Shown piece after piece: positions 305-6,754 of a stretch of DNA of 7,149 bases. The notes below the pieces were generated by a model that did no database searches, had not been told where the DNA came from, and saw only the letters and a program-made list of their open reading frames with translations. The stretch is from an uncultured Sphingomonas sp. (GTDB lineage Bacteria > Pseudomonadota > Alphaproteobacteria > Sphingomonadales > Sphingomonadaceae): NCBI GenBank assembly GCA_946482655.1, contig CAMLSA010000132.1, positions 1 through 7,149 of the forward strand, written 5' to 3'. Numbering within the stretch: position 1 is the stretch's first letter; each line of letters opens with the position of its first letter. The position numbers and the translations under genes are program-made.

Positions 305-685
305 ATGCTTGCAAGAACCGTCATAGCCGCGACCGTGTTGTGCCTGGGCACGGCTCCGGCCTGGTCCCAGTCCGCGGTCGAGCGCGCCAATGCGAAGAAC
401 CAGCGGGCGATCGAGCACCGCATGGCCAACTGCCCTCCCGGCAATCAAGCGGCCTGTGAGCGCGCCAATCAGAATGACCGCGAAGCGATCGCCCACAGGA
501 ATGCGACCGCCACCCCCGATCAGCGCGATCCGGACGCCGTGCTCGCCCGCGCCAACGAACGGGATGCCCGCAGCATTGAATATCGCAACGAGAATTGCCC
601 TTCGGGAAACAAGGCCGCGTGCGCGCGCGCCAATGCGAAGACGAAACGCGCCATGGCCAAGCGGAACGCCGAGATCCGGGACTAG
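305..685 (+). CDS. Small exported protein with four degenerate 25-residue repeats
   Basis: This encodes 126 residues. Residues 1-21 form a signal peptide: MLAR, then a hydrophobic core TVIAATVLCLGTAP ending AWS, with cleavage probably before or just after the following Gln-Ser. The mature part is about 105 residues, hydrophilic and charged, and consists of four imperfect repeats of about 25 residues. Their shared core is A-x-x-RAN-x5-(A/S)(I/M)-x-(H/Y/K)RN. Repeats 1 and 3 end in NCPxGNxAAC; repeat 2 has lost this cysteine tail and repeat 4 ends before it. The four mature cysteines therefore form two Cys-x7-Cys pairs that could make disulfides in the periplasm. I recognise no named family. 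The GAGGGAG site at 291-297 sets the start. It converges on the large KAP NTPase gene with only 38 bp between stop codons, so the two are not in one operon. It could be a periplasmic or surface repeat protein; its function is unknown. Confidence 0.75.
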   Translation: MLARTVIAATVLCLGTAPAWSQSAVERANAKNQRAIEHRMANCPPGNQAACERANQNDREAIAHRNATATPDQRDPDAVLARANERDARSIEYRNENCPSGNKAACARANAKTKRAMAKRNAEIRD

Positions 686-727
686 ATGTTTGGTACCGGA
701 ATTTGATAGCATTGGACTAACATCTAG
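682..727. terminator. Inverted repeat spanning two convergent stop codons
   Basis: CTAGATGTT at 682-690 and AACATCTAG at 719-727 form a perfect 9-bp dyad with a 28-base spacer. The left arm contains the TAG stop of the + strand gene and the right arm contains the TAG stop of the - strand gene. A shared bidirectional terminator is a reasonable reading, but the stem is not GC-rich, the loop is long and no T-tract follows on either strand, so intrinsic termination would be weak. Confidence 0.35.
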
Positions 728-3700
728 GCGGGCAGGCTTTCCGCTTCGGGCGGGCTTTGTCGCGGCGCCCGTGACGGCCGCTTGGTTCTTCGCGGTGTTG
801 AGGGCGCCGAGCCTCCGGAAGACGTTGCCGCGAGAATCGAAACCTCGCCCTCGATACGGATACCGTTGATCGAATGCTCGAACGCGTTGAGTTCGGCTGC
901 CGATGGCGGCCAGCCCGCGCCCGTCATGGCGGCATAGGCCCGGACGGCGCCCTGCAACAGGTCACCGTCGTCGTCGGTTTCGCCGTTCGCCTGCCCGAAT
1001 CCGTTCTCGATCCGCTGCCGCCAATCATCGGCATGGAGCATCTGAATCGCACCGAGAGCGACAATACGATGCTCGGCGACCACGTCGATCGTCGCGGCCG
1101 ACTGCTGTCCATCGGTCCGGGCGACGAGGCGGCTCAGGCGCCGAACCCACGCCATCGGGCCCGCATATCCGCCCGGCCCGGCGCCTTCGGCCTGCTGGAG
1201 CATGGCCAGATAGCGGAGCCGGTTGCCGAAGCGCTTGATCGCCCGCGGCGAAGGAGTCTTGCGGGCGACCACCGGCGTCCATGCCTTGAGCGCCTCTGCA
1301 AAGGCGCTCGAATCGCGCACGACCTCGTTCCGGTGCCGGAGCCGGTAGCGAATGACGACGGCGATGGCGGCAAGCGCCGCACAGAGCAGATAGAGCGGCC
1401 ACAGCCGGCCCTCGCTTCCGTCCCGGCCCGGTTCGACCTTCACCTCCCTCCGGGCCGGCTGCGCGGCCGCCGCGGCCGCCGCGGCAGACTTGACGGGAGT
1501 GCTCATCGACGCGGGGCCCGCCGCGCCTTCGCCGGATCGAGCGACGGCAGATGGCTGGGCGGCGACCGCCCGGACCGGTGGCGCAAGCCGGAAATATTGA
1601 GCGCTGAGCGCCCAGCCGGCGGCCGCAACCCCGGCAGCGACGGCAAGCGGTGCGACATAGCGCCTCACCCACTGGCCGCCGGCGGCGAGCCAATCATCAT
1701 CTTCGTCATCCCTCTCGGACTGCATCAGCAGCAGATGCGGCGGGATGTCCGCGCGCGAGGGCACCTTGATCTCGAGGTTGATCAGTTTCTGAAGATATTC
1801 TCCCGCATATTTGCGGCGCTTCTCCCGTTCTGCCCGATCGCGTTCGTGCGGCGGCCCGTCCGGGGAGATGACGGCGTCGAGCTCGACCAGTTCCTGCGCG
1901 ATGTCCTTGAACGACAGGGCGAGCGCCGCCTGCACGCGATGGGTCGCCATGCCGAACACGACGAAGCACTCGCCCGACGACATCAGGAAATTGACGGACT
2001 CCATGACCTGCAGCACCGTATCCGGGCGGCACCGGTCGAGGTCGTCTATCACGATCACCAGCGGGTATGGCAGCGCCGTGGTGACTTCATCGAACTGGCT
2101 CTGGAAGCGTGTCCGGAAACTCACCTGCGCCGATGCGTCGCTCAGCTTGAAATTCTCCACCGATTTGGTGAGCAACACCGCAGGATCGGTGCCGAACGAT
2201 TTCAGGGCCCTTCGGACGCCGGCGAATATGGCCAGGGCCGAGCCCACTTGGGGCACAACCCACAAGGAACGCGCGGCGGCCTCCTTGTCCGTGTTCCCAC
2301 CGCCGTCCTTGAACAGGCCGCCGATCAATTCGCCGATCTGGGCCCAGCCCTGGGCGCCGTTGAGCATGAAGAAGGCGAGGAGCGCACAGGTGAGAAACAG
2401 CAGCAGCAGCGACAGGCGCCACCACTTCACCGCTCGCATCCAGAAGAGCCGCGTCCGGAAGCTGAGCCCCTGCGGCGTGAGGAAGGGCGGCAAGGCCTTG
2501 TCTCGAATGGCCGCGAGCAGCGCGGCGAGAAGCTGCTCCTCGTCCTGATGATGCCAGGCATTGAACCAGACCGGACGATTGCCGTGCAGGCGCAAATCCT
2601 CGCACATCATCTGCATCAGGCTACTCTTGCCGGTGCCCCAGTCGCCGGAGACGGCGAGCGTCAGCGGCGGGCGGGTCGCCTCGTTGCGAAGGAAGCGGGA
2701 GATGCCTCGGGCCAGTGCGGTGAATTGCAGCTTGTCGTCGACTACCGACGCCGCCGGAGCATCGGTCACACCGATCGCGGCCACCCCCTCCTTGGATTCG
2801 GGCGGGGCCGGGCGAAATGCCGAGACCATCAGCGCCACCGCCAGGCCGAACGCCGGATAGAACCAGGGCGCGGGCAACCGGCGATAGACTGCGCCCGGTT
2901 GCGCGGGGCCGGCCCGCAGCTGGGGATACCAGCTGGTGCCGCCGTCGGAGGTGGCGAGGATCGTGCCCGCACCGGCCGCCCAGGCGTGTTTACGGTCGGC
3001 GAGCGCTGCGATGTCCTCGATCGCCCCATGGGTCGAGATCGTCTGCTGCTGCCACTCCGCTCCGCCGCTGGTGGTGCCCGAGATCGCTCCTCCAGGTCCT
3101 GCGGCCCATCCGCTCGTAGCGTCCGTCATGGCCAGCGCGCTGAGGGACCCGGGTCCGCTGACGGAGTTTTCAGGCGTACCGACGAACAAAGCTCCTCCGG
3201 CGATTCCCGCTATGCCGGGTGAGGCGGGAAGAGGGGAGAGGGCGGTGATCGGATCACGCCGAGGCAGCGGCGCGGACGGAGCGGGGGCGGGATTGATGGG
3301 CATTACGGCCGGCCGTCGGGAGGCGCTCTTCGCCGCCGCGCTGGGGCGCGGGTTCGGGGCCGGCTTGGCGGATCGCTCGAGCTGCGCCTGCATCGTCTGC
3401 TGCGGGGGTTCGTACAGTTGCGCGGCGGAATCCTTGGACGGGTCCGGCGGCGGCGATTTGGATAGGCTGTCGCTTGGCGGCCGCTGTTCGGCTTTTTCGG
3501 CCGGAACGAAGGCGATCCGCTGGAATGGCGGCCGGTTGGATGCCGGCGTATAGACGGCGGGAACGAAGGCGCTGTTCGGATTGTTCGCCTGATGGACATC
3601 ATAGGCGATGGCCTTTGCCATGCCGTAGCCAGCGCGGTCCGCGGCCGCGCCGGTGGTGCCCGTCGTCATTCCCCCGCGCGACCAACTGAGGCCACCGTCC

Positions 3701-4440
3701 TTCGTGGCGTAGAGGATGCCGTCGTCTCCGCCCAGCCAGCCGGTCATGCCATCATTGCTCAAGGCGACGGCGCGGAAATCGCGTCCGCCCACCGCCCCGG
3801 CGGCGGCCCAGCTCGCTCCGCCATCGGACGAGATCGATATCGCACCACCCGCGCCGACGGCGATCATCCGGATCCCGTCGGCGGAGATGGCGGTCGCATA
3901 ATATTCGCCGGGCGGAGCGCCCGCGACCGTCCAGGCCGGTTGCGCCGGCCGCCTCACCAGCACCGCGTCGTTGTCTCCGACGGCGACCGCCGTCGCGCCG
4001 TCCGCCGACATGGCGACGTCGTGCAGCGTTGTGCCGCCCCCCCTTCGCGCCCGCCGCCAGTCCAGACCACCATTGTCGGTGGCCAGGATCAATCCGCCCT
4101 CTCCGACCGCAACGCCGCTCTTGCCGTCAGCGGCGAAGGCGATGCCGAACAGGTGTCCGCCGACCCTGGTCAGCCGTAGCGTGGGATTGATCTCCAGCGG
4201 GTAGAGCAGCGTGTCGACGGGCCCCCGCTGCGCATAGCCATGGGCATCGGGATAGACTTGCTGCAGCGAAGCGAGCACTGTCGTGATCAGCAGAAAAATC
4301 CCCGCGACGACCATGGTTGCCCGAGATCGCGCCTTCGACCGCGCCCGTCCGCCGACGTGCGTCGAGGTTCCTGTGTTGGTAGCCGCCGCCATCCTGTGCC
4401 GCTTCTCCGCACGCCCAGCAGACCGATTCGGGAAAGACAC
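724..4440 (-). CDS. Membrane-anchored KAP-family P-loop NTPase with Asp-box propeller region
   Basis: This encodes 1238 residues. Residues 42-59 form a first membrane helix. Residues about 90-255 and 430-510 hold Asp-box (BNR/YCF48-like) blades with the pattern S/T-x-(D/S)-x-GG-x-x-W; five are visible near residues 121, 204, 246, 456 and 497. A proline/alanine-rich linker (about 295-410) splits them. A second helix (about 525-542) leads to the KAP NTPase: Walker A GDWGTGKSS (599-607), the family-typical WFNAW (625-629), an inserted pair of hydrophobic helices (about 673-693 and 726-743), and Walker B LVIVIDDLDRC (794-804). Two more helices (about 926-948 and 1012-1031) follow, then a C-terminal RAIKRFGNRLR segment (1066-1076) like the helical tail of KAP proteins. 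The blades are probably periplasmic and the NTPase cytoplasmic. The KAP family includes Kidins220/ARMS and phage-excluding PifA; the role here is unknown. The GTG at 4440 has GAGG eight bases upstream. An ATG at 4392, with GGAGAA ten bases upstream, is a serious alternative that would drop 16 residues. Confidence 0.85.
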   Translation of the reverse strand: MSFPNRSAGRAEKRHRMAAATNTGTSTHVGGRARSKARSRATMVVAGIFLLITTVLASLQQVYPDAHGYAQRGPVDTLLYPLEINPTLRLTRVGGHLFGIAFAADGKSGVAVGEGGLILATDNGGLDWRRARRGGGTTLHDVAMSADGATAVAVGDNDAVLVRRPAQPAWTVAGAPPGEYYATAISADGIRMIAVGAGGAISISSDGGASWAAAGAVGGRDFRAVALSNDGMTGWLGGDDGILYATKDGGLSWSRGGMTTGTTGAAADRAGYGMAKAIAYDVHQANNPNSAFVPAVYTPASNRPPFQRIAFVPAEKAEQRPPSDSLSKSPPPDPSKDSAAQLYEPPQQTMQAQLERSAKPAPNPRPSAAAKSASRRPAVMPINPAPAPSAPLPRRDPITALSPLPASPGIAGIAGGALFVGTPENSVSGPGSLSALAMTDATSGWAAGPGGAISGTTSGGAEWQQQTISTHGAIEDIAALADRKHAWAAGAGTILATSDGGTSWYPQLRAGPAQPGAVYRRLPAPWFYPAFGLAVALMVSAFRPAPPESKEGVAAIGVTDAPAASVVDDKLQFTALARGISRFLRNEATRPPLTLAVSGDWGTGKSSLMQMMCEDLRLHGNRPVWFNAWHHQDEEQLLAALLAAIRDKALPPFLTPQGLSFRTRLFWMRAVKWWRLSLLLLFLTCALLAFFMLNGAQGWAQIGELIGGLFKDGGGNTDKEAAARSLWVVPQVGSALAIFAGVRRALKSFGTDPAVLLTKSVENFKLSDASAQVSFRTRFQSQFDEVTTALPYPLVIVIDDLDRCRPDTVLQVMESVNFLMSSGECFVVFGMATHRVQAALALSFKDIAQELVELDAVISPDGPPHERDRAEREKRRKYAGEYLQKLINLEIKVPSRADIPPHLLLMQSERDDEDDDWLAAGGQWVRRYVAPLAVAAGVAAAGWALSAQYFRLAPPVRAVAAQPSAVARSGEGAAGPASMSTPVKSAAAAAAAAQPARREVKVEPGRDGSEGRLWPLYLLCAALAAIAVVIRYRLRHRNEVVRDSSAFAEALKAWTPVVARKTPSPRAIKRFGNRLRYLAMLQQAEGAGPGGYAGPMAWVRRLSRLVARTDGQQSAATIDVVAEHRIVALGAIQMLHADDWRQRIENGFGQANGETDDDGDLLQGAVRAYAAMTGAGWPPSAAELNAFEHSINGIRIEGEVSILAATSSGGSAPSTPRRTKRPSRAPRQSPPEAESLPA

Positions 4441-4495: not shown

Positions 4496-4828
4496 CTACG
4501 GGATTGGGCGCGTCAGCGTCGTAACAGCGGTGCCCGTCGTCGGTTGCGCAGCGCCCTGAGCGCGGGATGCATGTGCTGGCGCAGATCGTTGCTCCCATGC
4601 CATGTCCGCGACCGCGTGGATATGTGCGGTCAGCTCCCATTTGACCGGAGAGCCGGGAGCCGCGCGAATCCAGCCTCGGTCGGCGAGGGTCATGATCGCC
4701 CGTTGCACGGCGCTCTTGTCGTCGCCGAGCAGCCGGGCAAGAGCGCTGACCCCGATGGGCTGATGCCGCGCGATGCCTTCAAGCGCGGTAAGAACCCGAG
4801 CAGCGCTTTGTATCCGCTTGACCCCCAT
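4496..4828 (-). pseudogene. Decayed IclR-type regulator keeping only its DNA-binding domain
   Basis: The 110-residue frame begins MGVKRIQSAARVLTALEG and continues through a winged helix-turn-helix (about residues 5-72) of the IclR type: VSALARLLGDDKSAVQRAI followed by the wing ending WELTAHIHAVA. IclR regulators are normally about 250 residues with a C-terminal ligand domain; here translation stops at 4496. The damage is visible. After HAVADMA the family-like continuation GSNDLRQHMHPALRALR lies in the next frame (4546-4596), and the original frame then resumes with TTGTAVTTLTRPIP before TAG. That implies at least two indels plus a stop. The ATG at 4828 is preferred over the one at 4852 because GGGGAGAG (4834-4841) sits five bases ahead of it. 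A 110-residue DNA-binding remnant may still be made. It lies 55 bp upstream of the KAP NTPase gene on the same strand. Confidence 0.65.
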
Positions 4829-4833
4829 CAACG

Positions 4834-4841
4834 CTCTCCCC
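4834..4841 (-). promoter_or_regulatory. Ribosome binding site selecting the start at 4828
   Basis: Read on the minus strand, GGGGAGAG lies five bases before the ATG at 4828. The alternative ATG at 4852 has no purine-rich site ahead of it. This decides the start of the IclR-type remnant. Confidence 0.6.
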
Positions 4842-4865
4842 GACCTATTCATGCGCGCAATGAAT

Positions 4866-4993: not shown

Positions 4994-5506
4994 TCAGTTT
5001 TCGCGGTTCGCCTGACTGCGGGCGTTCGATTGGACTGCCGCGCTCCCGCTGACCGCGGCACCGCTGTTGGCGGCGCTTTCCACCTCCTTACGCGTCTTCC
5101 GCTTGGCGCGCTTGACGTCATTTGCGGCACTGCGGGTCGTCTGATCCGCCTTCGCCGCGGTATCGGCCACGGCACCCGTTGCCATATCTGTTCTGGGGGT
5201 CTGCGCCGCGACACCGGCGTTGGCCGAGCCGCCGGCCGTCGCGCCGACGGCGTTGCCCGTGGCCCGGGTGCCGCTTCCGAGCGAGCCGTCGGCGGAGGCG
5301 TTCGCGCTGCCGCCCGCGGCGCGCGGATCGACGCTACCGCTCGCACCGAGCGATCCGGTGCCGCCGACATTCGAGCCCACCGAACCCACCCCGCCGCCGA
5401 GTGATCCACCTAGGCCGCCGCCGACCGCGCCGCTCAATTGCGCCACGCCAGGAGCCGACATCAGGCCAAGCGCCATCACGCTGCTCGCGAAGATAATTGT
5501 TTTCAT
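4994..5506 (-). CDS. Exported Gly/Ala/Ser-rich low-complexity protein
   Basis: This encodes 170 residues. Residues 1-22 are a signal peptide: MK-TIIFASSVMALGLMSAP, then GVA before a Gln. The mature protein is low-complexity. Residues about 25-100 are glycine/serine/alanine-rich with repeated VGG, LGG and GSLG units, residues about 100-128 are Ala/Thr-rich, and residues 131-142 form a strongly basic cluster (VKRAKRKTRKEV) before an Ala/Ser/Asn tail. It contains no cysteine or tryptophan, so a compact enzyme is unlikely; a cell-surface, periplasmic or matrix-associated structural protein fits better. Paired purine sites GGAG (5517-5520) and AAGGA (5512-5516) stand just ahead of the ATG. It lies 81 bp downstream of the Crp/Fnr gene on the same strand, so co-transcription is possible, and it ends at a strong terminator. 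I do not recognise a family; the coding call rests on the signal peptide, the RBS and the terminator. Confidence 0.7.
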   Translation of the reverse strand: MKTIIFASSVMALGLMSAPGVAQLSGAVGGGLGGSLGGGVGSVGSNVGGTGSLGASGSVDPRAAGGSANASADGSLGSGTRATGNAVGATAGGSANAGVAAQTPRTDMATGAVADTAAKADQTTRSAANDVKRAKRKTRKEVESAANSGAAVSGSAAVQSNARSQANREN

Positions 5507-5587: not shown

Positions 5588-6331
5588 TCAGGCCGCCACC
5601 GAATCGGGCTCGCGCGGGTAGACGCCGGCCAGGACGGTGTCGAAGTGATCGCGCACACGGCCGTTGCAGTCGCACGCGACCGCGCTCAGGCGGTCGGCAT
5701 CGAGAATCAGGATCCGCCGCCGTCGCGAGCCCAATATGCCGCTGGCGCCGAAATGGCGCAGCGAACGGTTGATGAAGCTGCGACCGACGCCGAGCATCTC
5801 GCCGAGCTGTTCCTGGGTGATGACTATCTCGTCGGTTCCGATCCGGTCGCGGGTCGCGATCAGCCAGCGTGCCAGGCGCTGGGCAATGGTGTGCGAGGCA
5901 TTACAGGCGGCGGACTGGAAGATCTGGGCGACGAGGCAGTCCCCATAGCGGGCCAACCAGTTGGCGATGGCGGGCGATTGTTCCTTGGCTTGGGCCAGCG
6001 CGGCCAGCGGCAGCCGCAGGAAACGCCCGCCGAACTGGACATGCGCGCGCGCATATGCCGGGAGGCGGCCGGTCGATACCAAGCCGCCCACGGCGCCTTC
6101 GCGGCCGATCAGCGCGGCATCCACCATATGGTTGGTGTCGGCCGCGACGAGGAAGGATGCTGCGGCCGCATCGAGTGGAAACCAGGCGTAGCGAACGTCG
6201 CCGCCGGCCTCTTGCAGGATCTTGCCCGTAGCACATTCGTGCAGGGTGAAGGATGGCAGCAGCAGCTCGAGGTCCTGAGGCTTGAGCGCGGCAAGCAATC
6301 GGTTCTGATGAGCTGTGTGTGCGTCTATCAT
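5588..6331 (-). CDS. Crp/Fnr-family transcriptional regulator
   Basis: This encodes 247 residues, the usual length for the family. Residues about 20-115 form the cyclic-nucleotide-binding-like beta-roll, including the cassette region VDAALIGREGAVGG (70-83). The canonical cAMP-contacting Arg-Ser pair of E. coli CRP is not evident, so cAMP is an unlikely ligand. A dimerisation helix (about 115-150) leads to a Crp-type helix-turn-helix: ITQEQLGEMLGVGRSFINRSL (171-191, given here with its continuation RHFGASGIL to 200). There is no N-terminal cysteine cluster, so it is not an Fe-S oxygen sensor of the FNR kind. The ATG at 6331 is chosen because GGAG (6338-6341) lies six bases upstream and because the fold starts about there; the frame stays open another 141 codons upstream to 6754. 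It is followed by the Gly-rich exported protein gene on the same strand. The regulated genes and signal are unknown. Confidence 0.88.
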   Translation of the reverse strand: MIDAHTAHQNRLLAALKPQDLELLLPSFTLHECATGKILQEAGGDVRYAWFPLDAAAASFLVAADTNHMVDAALIGREGAVGGLVSTGRLPAYARAHVQFGGRFLRLPLAALAQAKEQSPAIANWLARYGDCLVAQIFQSAACNASHTIAQRLARWLIATRDRIGTDEIVITQEQLGEMLGVGRSFINRSLRHFGASGILGSRRRRILILDADRLSAVACDCNGRVRDHFDTVLAGVYPREPDSVAA

Positions 6332-6754
6332 TCTCGACTCCATCGGCTGAGTTCCAAACGTTCCACCTCCGATCATGTTCACCTGGACACAGTCCGGATG
6401 CGAAAAAATTTTGATGTCGAAACGAAAATCGAGAATCTTCCGAGCGTTAGGGCAACCTCCGCGGCGCTTCCCCTTTCGGTCAAGACGCTCCCGTCGAGCC
6501 GGATCCGCCGCCCGACCGTCGCTGCGCCCACGTCGCGCTGGTGCTGCATGGATCACAGGCGGGAACGCCTCCTCCCGCGGAGGATCGATGAAGTCGGTGA
6601 GCCCGAGACACTCGACGCGCTCCGCGAGCTCATCATATGACAATCGAGCCGGCGATCTGTGCAGTGGCCATGAATCGATATGTGAGATCGAGGGGAAGTC
6701 GTCGAGCCGGGGCCACTCTTCCCGTACGTCGTCGACATTGAGCCCGATCTTCAT
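6332..6754 (-). other. Open frame above the Crp/Fnr gene; possible small hypothetical gene
   Basis: The frame of the Crp/Fnr gene continues without a stop for 141 codons to an ATG at 6754. The first 65 or so codons, beginning MKIGLNVDDVREEW and containing SYDELAERVECLGL, have G/C-rich third positions and a protein-like composition. The later part is arginine-rich and then AT-rich and looks non-coding. Either this is a small hypothetical or truncated gene whose true end has been lost, or it is upstream DNA that happens to stay open. An N-terminal domain fused to the Crp/Fnr protein is less likely. The ATG at 6754 has no well-spaced ribosome binding site; AGGGG is about 16 bases away. The AT-rich island at about 6400-6436 probably holds the Crp/Fnr promoter, but I could not assign clear -35 and -10 boxes. 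Confidence 0.35.

Follow-up and report, generated by a model that had tools for sequence, protein, structure and literature searches.

What would a propeller outside the cell membrane do when it is joined to a nucleoside triphosphatase (NTPase) inside? This question was raised by one gene on a 7,149-nucleotide stretch of DNA from an uncultured Sphingomonas sp. (the window; GenBank assembly GCA_946482655.1, contig CAMLSA010000132.1), which encodes an Asp-box propeller and a KAP NTPase in a frame of predicted membrane helices. We considered that the protein is best explained, with a probability of roughly 0.5, as an extracytoplasmic receptor that recognizes its targets, probably phages or other invaders, and signals to the NTPase inside. 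No description of a propeller-KAP fusion was found in the open-licence full text of PubMed Central (PMC), a search that covers neither preprints nor supplements.

Parts of the window protein and the side of the membrane they probably face

The window protein was composed, in order, of a helix, a seven-bladed Asp-box (YCF48-type) propeller, a second helix, a KAP NTPase with an inserted helix pair, two further helices and a helical C-terminal domain. These parts are listed with their window coordinates.

724..4440 (-): whole open reading frame (ORF), propeller-KAP membrane protein, 1238 amino acids
4264..4320 (-): transmembrane helix 1, residues 41-59, N-terminus predicted inside from the lysine/arginine (KR) bias in relatives
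3676..4164 (-): propeller blades 1-4, residues about 93-255, from the structure model and YCF48 matches
3274..3666 (-): disordered insert after blade 4, residues 259-389, Pro/Ala/Ser-rich, with a model confidence score (pLDDT) < 50
2875..3273 (-): propeller blades 5-7, residues about 390-522, from the structure model
2815..2871 (-): transmembrane helix 2, residues 524-542; in the consensus, a conserved PAPW stands just before the helix
1900..2709 (-): KAP NTPase domain, residues 578-847, Pfam match; the nearest solved fold is RdrA
2620..2646 (-): Walker A, GDWGTGKSS, residues 599-607
2359..2415 (-): transmembrane helix 3, within the NTPase domain, residues 676-694
2188..2286 (-): helix 4 of the inserted pair, residues 719-751, a model helix that is weakly hydrophobic in the window protein
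2029..2061 (-): Walker B, LVIVIDDLDRC, residues 794-804
1600..1656 (-): transmembrane helix 5, residues 929-947
1348..1404 (-): transmembrane helix 6, residues 1013-1031
856..1347 (-): C-terminal helical domain, residues 1032-1195, conserved in relatives

The KAP NTPase and the N-terminal propeller had both been proposed in the original prediction, the latter from five Asp-box-like blades, and both held up. The KAP profile (PF07693) matched at 81 bits against a cut-off of 20, with Walker A and Walker B present, and the protein was recognized as an Asp-box propeller of the YCF48/PSII_BNR kind, with seven blades by the YCF48 matches and the structure model. In that model the KAP helix pair (676-694 and 719-751) lay between Walker A and Walker B, and 89 of 110 proteins had two hydrophobic segments there.

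Relatives were collected by two queries. The whole window protein matched 128 proteins including its own, and residues 440-980 of a distant relative matched 918; each time the candidates sharing most words were scored and the best 120 were listed. The genome set comprised the best 80 of 493 loci. L067, L074, and L080 were excluded since the ORF chosen by the script was not the KAP gene, L053 duplicated L052, and L064 duplicated L055. The L055 stretch had yet another copy, L056, which still stood among the loci used for blade counts. Relatives usually had a helix near the N-terminus, followed by the outer segment and by a second helix close ahead of Walker A; one or two helices then stood between the two Walker motifs, and two more came after Walker B.

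Judged by domain matches, these relatives have exchanged what lies between helices 1 and 2 as a module. OmpA was carried by 9 of the best-listed 120 proteins out of the 918. Between the predicted helices there was an OmpA domain in L073, P0128, and P0134, PASTA in P0105 and P0119, PG_binding_1 in P0211, Big_7 (a bacterial Ig domain) in P0120, and a WD40 propeller in L063; Asp-box propellers with or without PASTA, PG_binding_1 or Big_7 made up further types. In P0105 and P0119 the PASTA domain was placed between groups of blades, comparable to the window insert after blade 4. A PASTA match in L058 (23.0 bits) fell just below the cut-off of 23.2. The outer segment of L071 (4480-7488) was a fresh array of 42-residue propeller-like repeats without Asp-box; a ricin-lectin match in this array (20 bits, cut-off 29) was probably chance and was set aside.

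Known proteins carry their OmpA and PASTA domains on the extracytoplasmic side, so the slot between helices 1 and 2 would face outwards. The divergence of 31 non-overlapping related pairs, picked by the identity of the second NTPase part (a choice that favours that part), was in agreement. All three predicted outer segments drifted fastest, with median identities of 62.7% for the ectodomain (29 of the 31 pairs), 66.7% for the helix 3-4 loop and 52.6% for the helix 5-6 loop. The two NTPase parts were slowest at 92.1% and 87.3%, and the C-terminus was intermediate at 72.6%. The N side of helix 1 was more positive in KR charge in 41 of 69 proteins and less so in 15, an N-in bias. Other observations fitted this layout poorly: both helices were found in only 69 of the 110 proteins for the charge test, the flank charge of helix 2 disagreed with the topology (20 for and 30 against of the 69), and all six helices were found by hydropathy in 136 of 306 sequences, fragments included. 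Topology from charge alone was therefore dropped, as helix 1 agreed and helix 2 did not. Based on the outer domain types, the helix 1 bias and the fast drift of three outer segments, the propeller is very probably outside and the KAP NTPase inside, also in the window protein. The proposed layout of an outside sensor, a six-helix frame and an inside NTPase was thus well supported, the flank charge of helix 2 excepted.

Variation of the ectodomain and its blades

We found that the outer half diverged much further than the KAP half in several comparisons. In the closest relatives of the window protein (P0003-P0009), the ectodomain was 30-35% identical to that of the window and the KAP part 61-66%. 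Among the best 30 of the 117 pairs found, P0004 and P0007, both close to the window protein, were 86.5% identical in the KAP half and 39.8% in the ectodomain, and P0042 and P0070 were 93.0% and 30.1% identical respectively. The pair L055/L056 (96% and 59%) was removed from the evidence, in that the gene DNA was 97.4% identical with gaps and the difference was a matter of frame; its removal left the odds as they were.

Two Gallionella genomes (L004 and L005) carried the KAP gene at the same locus with unlike ectodomains. The nearest flanking DNA blocks matched at 93.5% upstream and 96.2% downstream, the 90 bases around the gene start matched at 90% with the first 17 residues identical, and the KAP part matched at 89.2% in DNA, the KAP halves being 84.6% identical. 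Between these, about 2 kilobases (kb) of L004 (9895-11938) gave no DNA alignment with L005, and the part before helix 2 was 671 residues long in L004 versus 363 in L005. Farther upstream, L005 was longer than L004 by about 3 kb.

To locate change within the blades, 15 loci with at least three blade pairs of at least 80% identity were pooled with equal weights. Replacements concentrated at blade positions 28, 10, 12, 29, and 8. The proportion of replacement changes (pN) was 0.40 at these five positions and 0.084 elsewhere, with an overall synonymous proportion (pS) of 0.186; these proportions are simple counts rather than likelihood estimates, and the data that first brought out the five positions overlap with those used here. 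The ratio to pS was above 1 in 14 of the 15 loci. The identical five positions were named every time one locus was left out, the top five of each locus overlapped them in 44 of 75 cases versus 9 expected, and 0 of 2000 random draws were equally concentrated. Further proteins (186 tested, 19 dropped as already in the genome set) included 52 with at least four 42-residue blades; 14 of these had at least four alike blades, and their most variable positions were 10, 28, 12, 8, 9, and 29.

When mapped via the model strands of blade 4, the five positions fell into two places, the b-c loop and the d-a loop together with the first part of strand a. On the structure model they lie on one face of the ring, the ligand face, away from the Asp-box. 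Positions 10 and 12 flank L11, which hardly varied. It is quite likely that a diversified recognition surface is a trait of the family. A similar pattern is known from the fungal HET-E/HET-D (HNWD) proteins, for which two papers describe selected codons 7 and 9 (d-a loop) and 25 and 27 (b-c turn), each pair flanking a conserved codon (PMC1805685, PMC2873952). HET-E/HET-D and the relatives share near-identical blades, changes in the d-a loop and b-c turn beside a conserved residue, and the joining of a propeller to an NTPase. They differ in that HET-E/HET-D combine WD40 with NACHT in the cytoplasm, whereas the window family combines Asp-box with KAP and places the propeller outside the membrane; moreover, near-identical blades occurred in 21 of 75 relatives and not in the window protein.

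Blades had also been duplicated afresh. Neighbouring units that repeat every 41 or 42 codons were at least 80% identical as DNA in 23 of 77 loci, or in 21 of 75 when L053 and L064 are set aside as duplicates, with highest identities of up to 99%, while the KAP half had adjacent units reaching 70% in 0 of 77 loci. L055 carried 13.7 copies of 126 base pairs (bp) with 92% match. Ten stand-alone YCF48 genes from KAP-carrying genomes had no fresh blades (adjacent units 0.47-0.57), versus 6 of 8 KAP-linked propellers in the same search that reached 0.81 or more; the comparison is rough, in that the stand-alone set (frames of 331-453 residues) had fewer recognized blades. KAP genes cut at locus ends and two frames of 728 and 747 residues were excluded from it.

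A proposed receptor against invaders and the competing readings

The domains, the helix frame, the outer exchange, the blade results, the unlike ectodomains at one locus and the phage-borne relative were computed; the topology, the ligand, the switching and the output of the window protein are what we infer from them. The N-terminus would be cytoplasmic, and helices 1 and 2 would hold the propeller outside, in the periplasm should the hosts be Gram-negative, which their names imply, with the KAP NTPase, its helix pair and the C-terminal domain inside. Binding of a ligand to the ligand-face loops of the propeller would alter the bundle of helices and thereby switch the NTPase. The target of the switched NTPase would be either the membrane or a partner in the cytoplasm; a direct effect on the membrane as the output is possible but somewhat doubtful. 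The ligands would most likely be invader-derived parts in the periplasm, such as phage entry proteins or those of rival bacteria, and the protein would serve as a periplasm-facing receptor of immune type or for superinfection exclusion.

A phage-borne relative bears on this role. P0233 (L082:6985-10911; 1308 residues) had helix 1, blades mostly of 42 residues, helix 2 and the KAP core, and was located on a viral contig between a head maturation protease, a major head protein and a tail protein upstream and a tape-measure protein downstream (PHROGs), with one unmatched ORF on each side. Its most variable blade positions were 28, 12, and 10, then 40, 29, 4, and 8. Superinfection exclusion is a frequent role of cargo genes that lie among the late genes of phages, and phage conflict was favoured for this reason. 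Two more viral scans gave no other contig matching beyond the KAP half.

Presence of the gene is sporadic. The loci came from Proteobacteria and also from KSB1, Acidobacteria, Planctomycetes, Verrucomicrobia, Spirochaetes, and Gemmatimonadetes. Counting the centre genome in each case, 2 of the 99 genomes from the genus to which L012 (Pseudomonas donghuensis) belongs had the gene (at most 6 candidate places scored per genome), as did 1 of 147 from the order of L024 (Sphingomonadales; at most 4). An empty-site test in Pseudomonas was of no use, one of the L009 flanks scoring 0 of 99 and the other 5 of 99. On one Siccirubricoccus contig, a stretch of 13-21 kb was present in three near-identical copies (L055, L056, and L064), each with a KAP gene and, as judged by eye, one gene resembling a serine recombinase and one of PLD/helicase-like type. 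In L055 (1-1249), 13 copies of a 96-bp repeat (81% match, HEAT-like by eye) were located in a neighbouring coding region.

Several observations weighed against the reading as an invader receptor. The window propeller had no recent blade duplication (best adjacent unit 0.53), so that architecture makes the window protein a member of the family but fresh blade turnover is not seen in it. Within the subfamily of the window protein, variability at the five positions was only mildly raised (mean entropy 1.95 versus 1.48), other positions being as high. L001 was off the pattern (ratio 0.88, 1 of 5 positions), L049 followed it barely (1.02), and position 29 was in the top five of only 2 of the 14 further proteins. 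Both halves were equally conserved in L044/L047 (93.5 and 92.2%) and P0142/P0146 (93.4 and 92.8%), and P0222/P0229 likewise had an ectodomain no less conserved than the KAP half. Mis-assembly is possible in L004 and L005, both of them metagenome bins. The phage copy represents a single phage, present in two metagenomes with 14,184 of 14,200 positions identical, and its blades were old copies (DNA median 0.55); the window protein had no match among 50,697 phage or 72,556 plasmid records.

The neighbourhood added to this. Clustering of 946 ORFs from 78 of the 80 loci, called by script and possibly wrong in places, gave widest clusters (13 and 10 loci) that look like response regulators/kinases and ABC transporters; they had no fixed place beside the KAP gene, and no conserved partner was found in the 78 loci. 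A further scan covered 113 neighbours (39 loci) of the 196 nearest neighbours listed from 55 loci, excluding 16 whole loci (L056, L005, whose location is that of L004, and 14 more) as well as ORFs that were short or doubtful and a single one of 2,792 residues. Among the best 25 of 130 Pfam entries, MFS was present in 4, response regulator in 3 and others in 1 or 2. PADLOC at 1e-15 gave one member per entry among the best 25 of 49, such as a type III restriction enzyme, a DndA/SspA-type match, a reverse-transcriptase-linked helicase, a GajB-type (UvrD) helicase and an RtcR-type match. Co-location of homologues with defence genes, as considered in the original prediction, was not borne out: the 113 neighbours, for which no background rate was computed, gave no sign of a defence island, and many belonged to ordinary metabolic, transport and regulatory families. 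The suggestion of phage sensing was supported in part, in that ligand-face replacements in relatives, unlike ectodomains at one locus and the phage-borne relative argue for it and the lack of a defence-island sign against it.

The outer segment might instead read the state of the envelope or peptidoglycan, with the NTPase driving repair or a stress output and no invader involved. OmpA, PASTA, and PG_binding_1 in the outer segment of relatives count for such a sensor and against an invader receptor, as do the often ordinary neighbours. However, wall-binding domains may merely anchor the protein, and very sporadic presence, ligand-face diversification and unlike ectodomains at one locus would be odd for a conserved wall. 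We regarded envelope sensing as rather unlikely. Because the scanned neighbours gave no conserved partner and no sign of a defence island, and peptidoglycan-binding domains fit an envelope sensor, a role in conflict, with phage or rival, was held at even odds.

Recognition of kin or rivals (allorecognition or contact competition) in place of phage would be the closest parallel to HET-E/HET-D, in which diversification falls at the same structural positions, and the unlike ectodomains of the related L004 and L005 genomes would suit it. The phage-borne relative points instead to conflict with phages, and no recurring neighbour was seen that could serve as a partner, which made this reading improbable to us.

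The blade arrays could also reflect neutral repeat turnover that says nothing about recognition. According to PMC9218822, a text with no KAP or YCF48, every major lineage of propellers, Asp-box included, has highly repetitive members that were amplified recently; blade repeats alone are therefore not new. Neutral turnover would not be expected to place replacements on one set of five positions in loci from different phyla, with the synonymous level exceeded in 14 of the 15, and is very unlikely.

Finally, the protein might act on membrane proteins as a chaperone or help in their assembly, the part that YCF48 plays for photosystem II. The propeller family and solved YCF48 complexes with D1 peptide suggest such a role, but it is scarcely credible given that patchy presence, blade duplication and ectodomain exchange are unlike a factor with a conserved client and that the stand-alone YCF48 genes lacked fresh blades.

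Returning to the invader receptor, we tentatively propose a family of bacterial extracytoplasmic immune receptors in which rapidly rearranged propellers or other outer domains, diversified on the ligand face, would sense invader parts in the periplasm and act through six helices on a KAP NTPase, and which phages could carry as superinfection-exclusion cargo. To our knowledge, most known bacterial anti-phage receptors are cytoplasmic, with Zorya as an envelope-anchored exception. A periplasm-reading receptor with a rapidly diversified surface would, if true, extend bacterial innate recognition to the entry step, provide a bacterial system for following the evolution of non-self recognition by repeated blades, form an outward-facing bacterial parallel to the fungal HET-E/HET-D receptors, and give KAP NTPases a clear input side.

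Related systems and the remaining genes of the window

The KAP P-loop NTPase family (PF07693), reportedly described in Aravind et al. 2004, shares with the window protein Walker A and B, a helix pair within the NTPase domain and membrane association; the module of helix 1, propeller and helix 2 in front is the difference. Similarity to anti-phage KAP-type proteins concerned the KAP core, with 74 bits for PDC-S20 (a PADLOC candidate), 70 for QatA and 56 for PifA. The best stretches of all three lay within the KAP part, that of PifA covering residues 559-647 only, and the outer propeller belongs to the window protein. The equivalog of QatA (qatABCD) was not reached (87.5 of 600 bits). RdrA of the RADAR anti-phage system resembled the KAP part at 14% identity (Foldseek E 0.004), likely by a shared AAA+-type fold. 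The photosystem II assembly propellers YCF48/HCF136 share the Asp-box propeller, but the Ycf48 equivalog PRK13684 (NCBIfam) was not reached (50 of 326 bits) and the window propeller is fused to a membrane NTPase. Zorya is an inner-membrane anti-phage system that reads the envelope with an OmpA-like wall-binding domain and has a MotAB-type motor and cytoplasmic nuclease/helicase partners; it is not known to contain a KAP NTPase or a propeller.

Tmn is a KAP NTPase with two transmembrane domains, and its NTPase mechanism was called unexplored in 2025, both according to PMC11846954; Tmn gave no entry in the PADLOC search of the window protein, and no Tmn sequence was compared. KAP NTPases are occasional NTPases in target proteins of diversity-generating retroelements (PMC10907252) and stand in place of STAND NTPases in counter-invader systems (PMC8195603); PMC7159879 contains no passage on such a replacement.

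The window was even in composition, and scans for promoters/terminators, Rfam families and tRNAs gave nothing of use. At 305-685 (+), a small exported-looking protein had repeated Asn/Arg/Cys-containing units with no family match above cut-off. A Gly/Ala-rich exported-looking protein of 170 residues (4994-5506, -) likewise had no family match. A Crp/FNR-type regulator was encoded at 5588-6754 (-; HTH_Crp_2, 49 bits), with no cyclic-nucleotide domain match. A 118-residue winged-helix protein (4496-4852, -; HTH_IclR/MarR match), for which no recurring counterpart stood out in the genome loci, ended 55 bases upstream of the GTG start codon of the KAP gene on the same strand, and the two genes may be co-transcribed.

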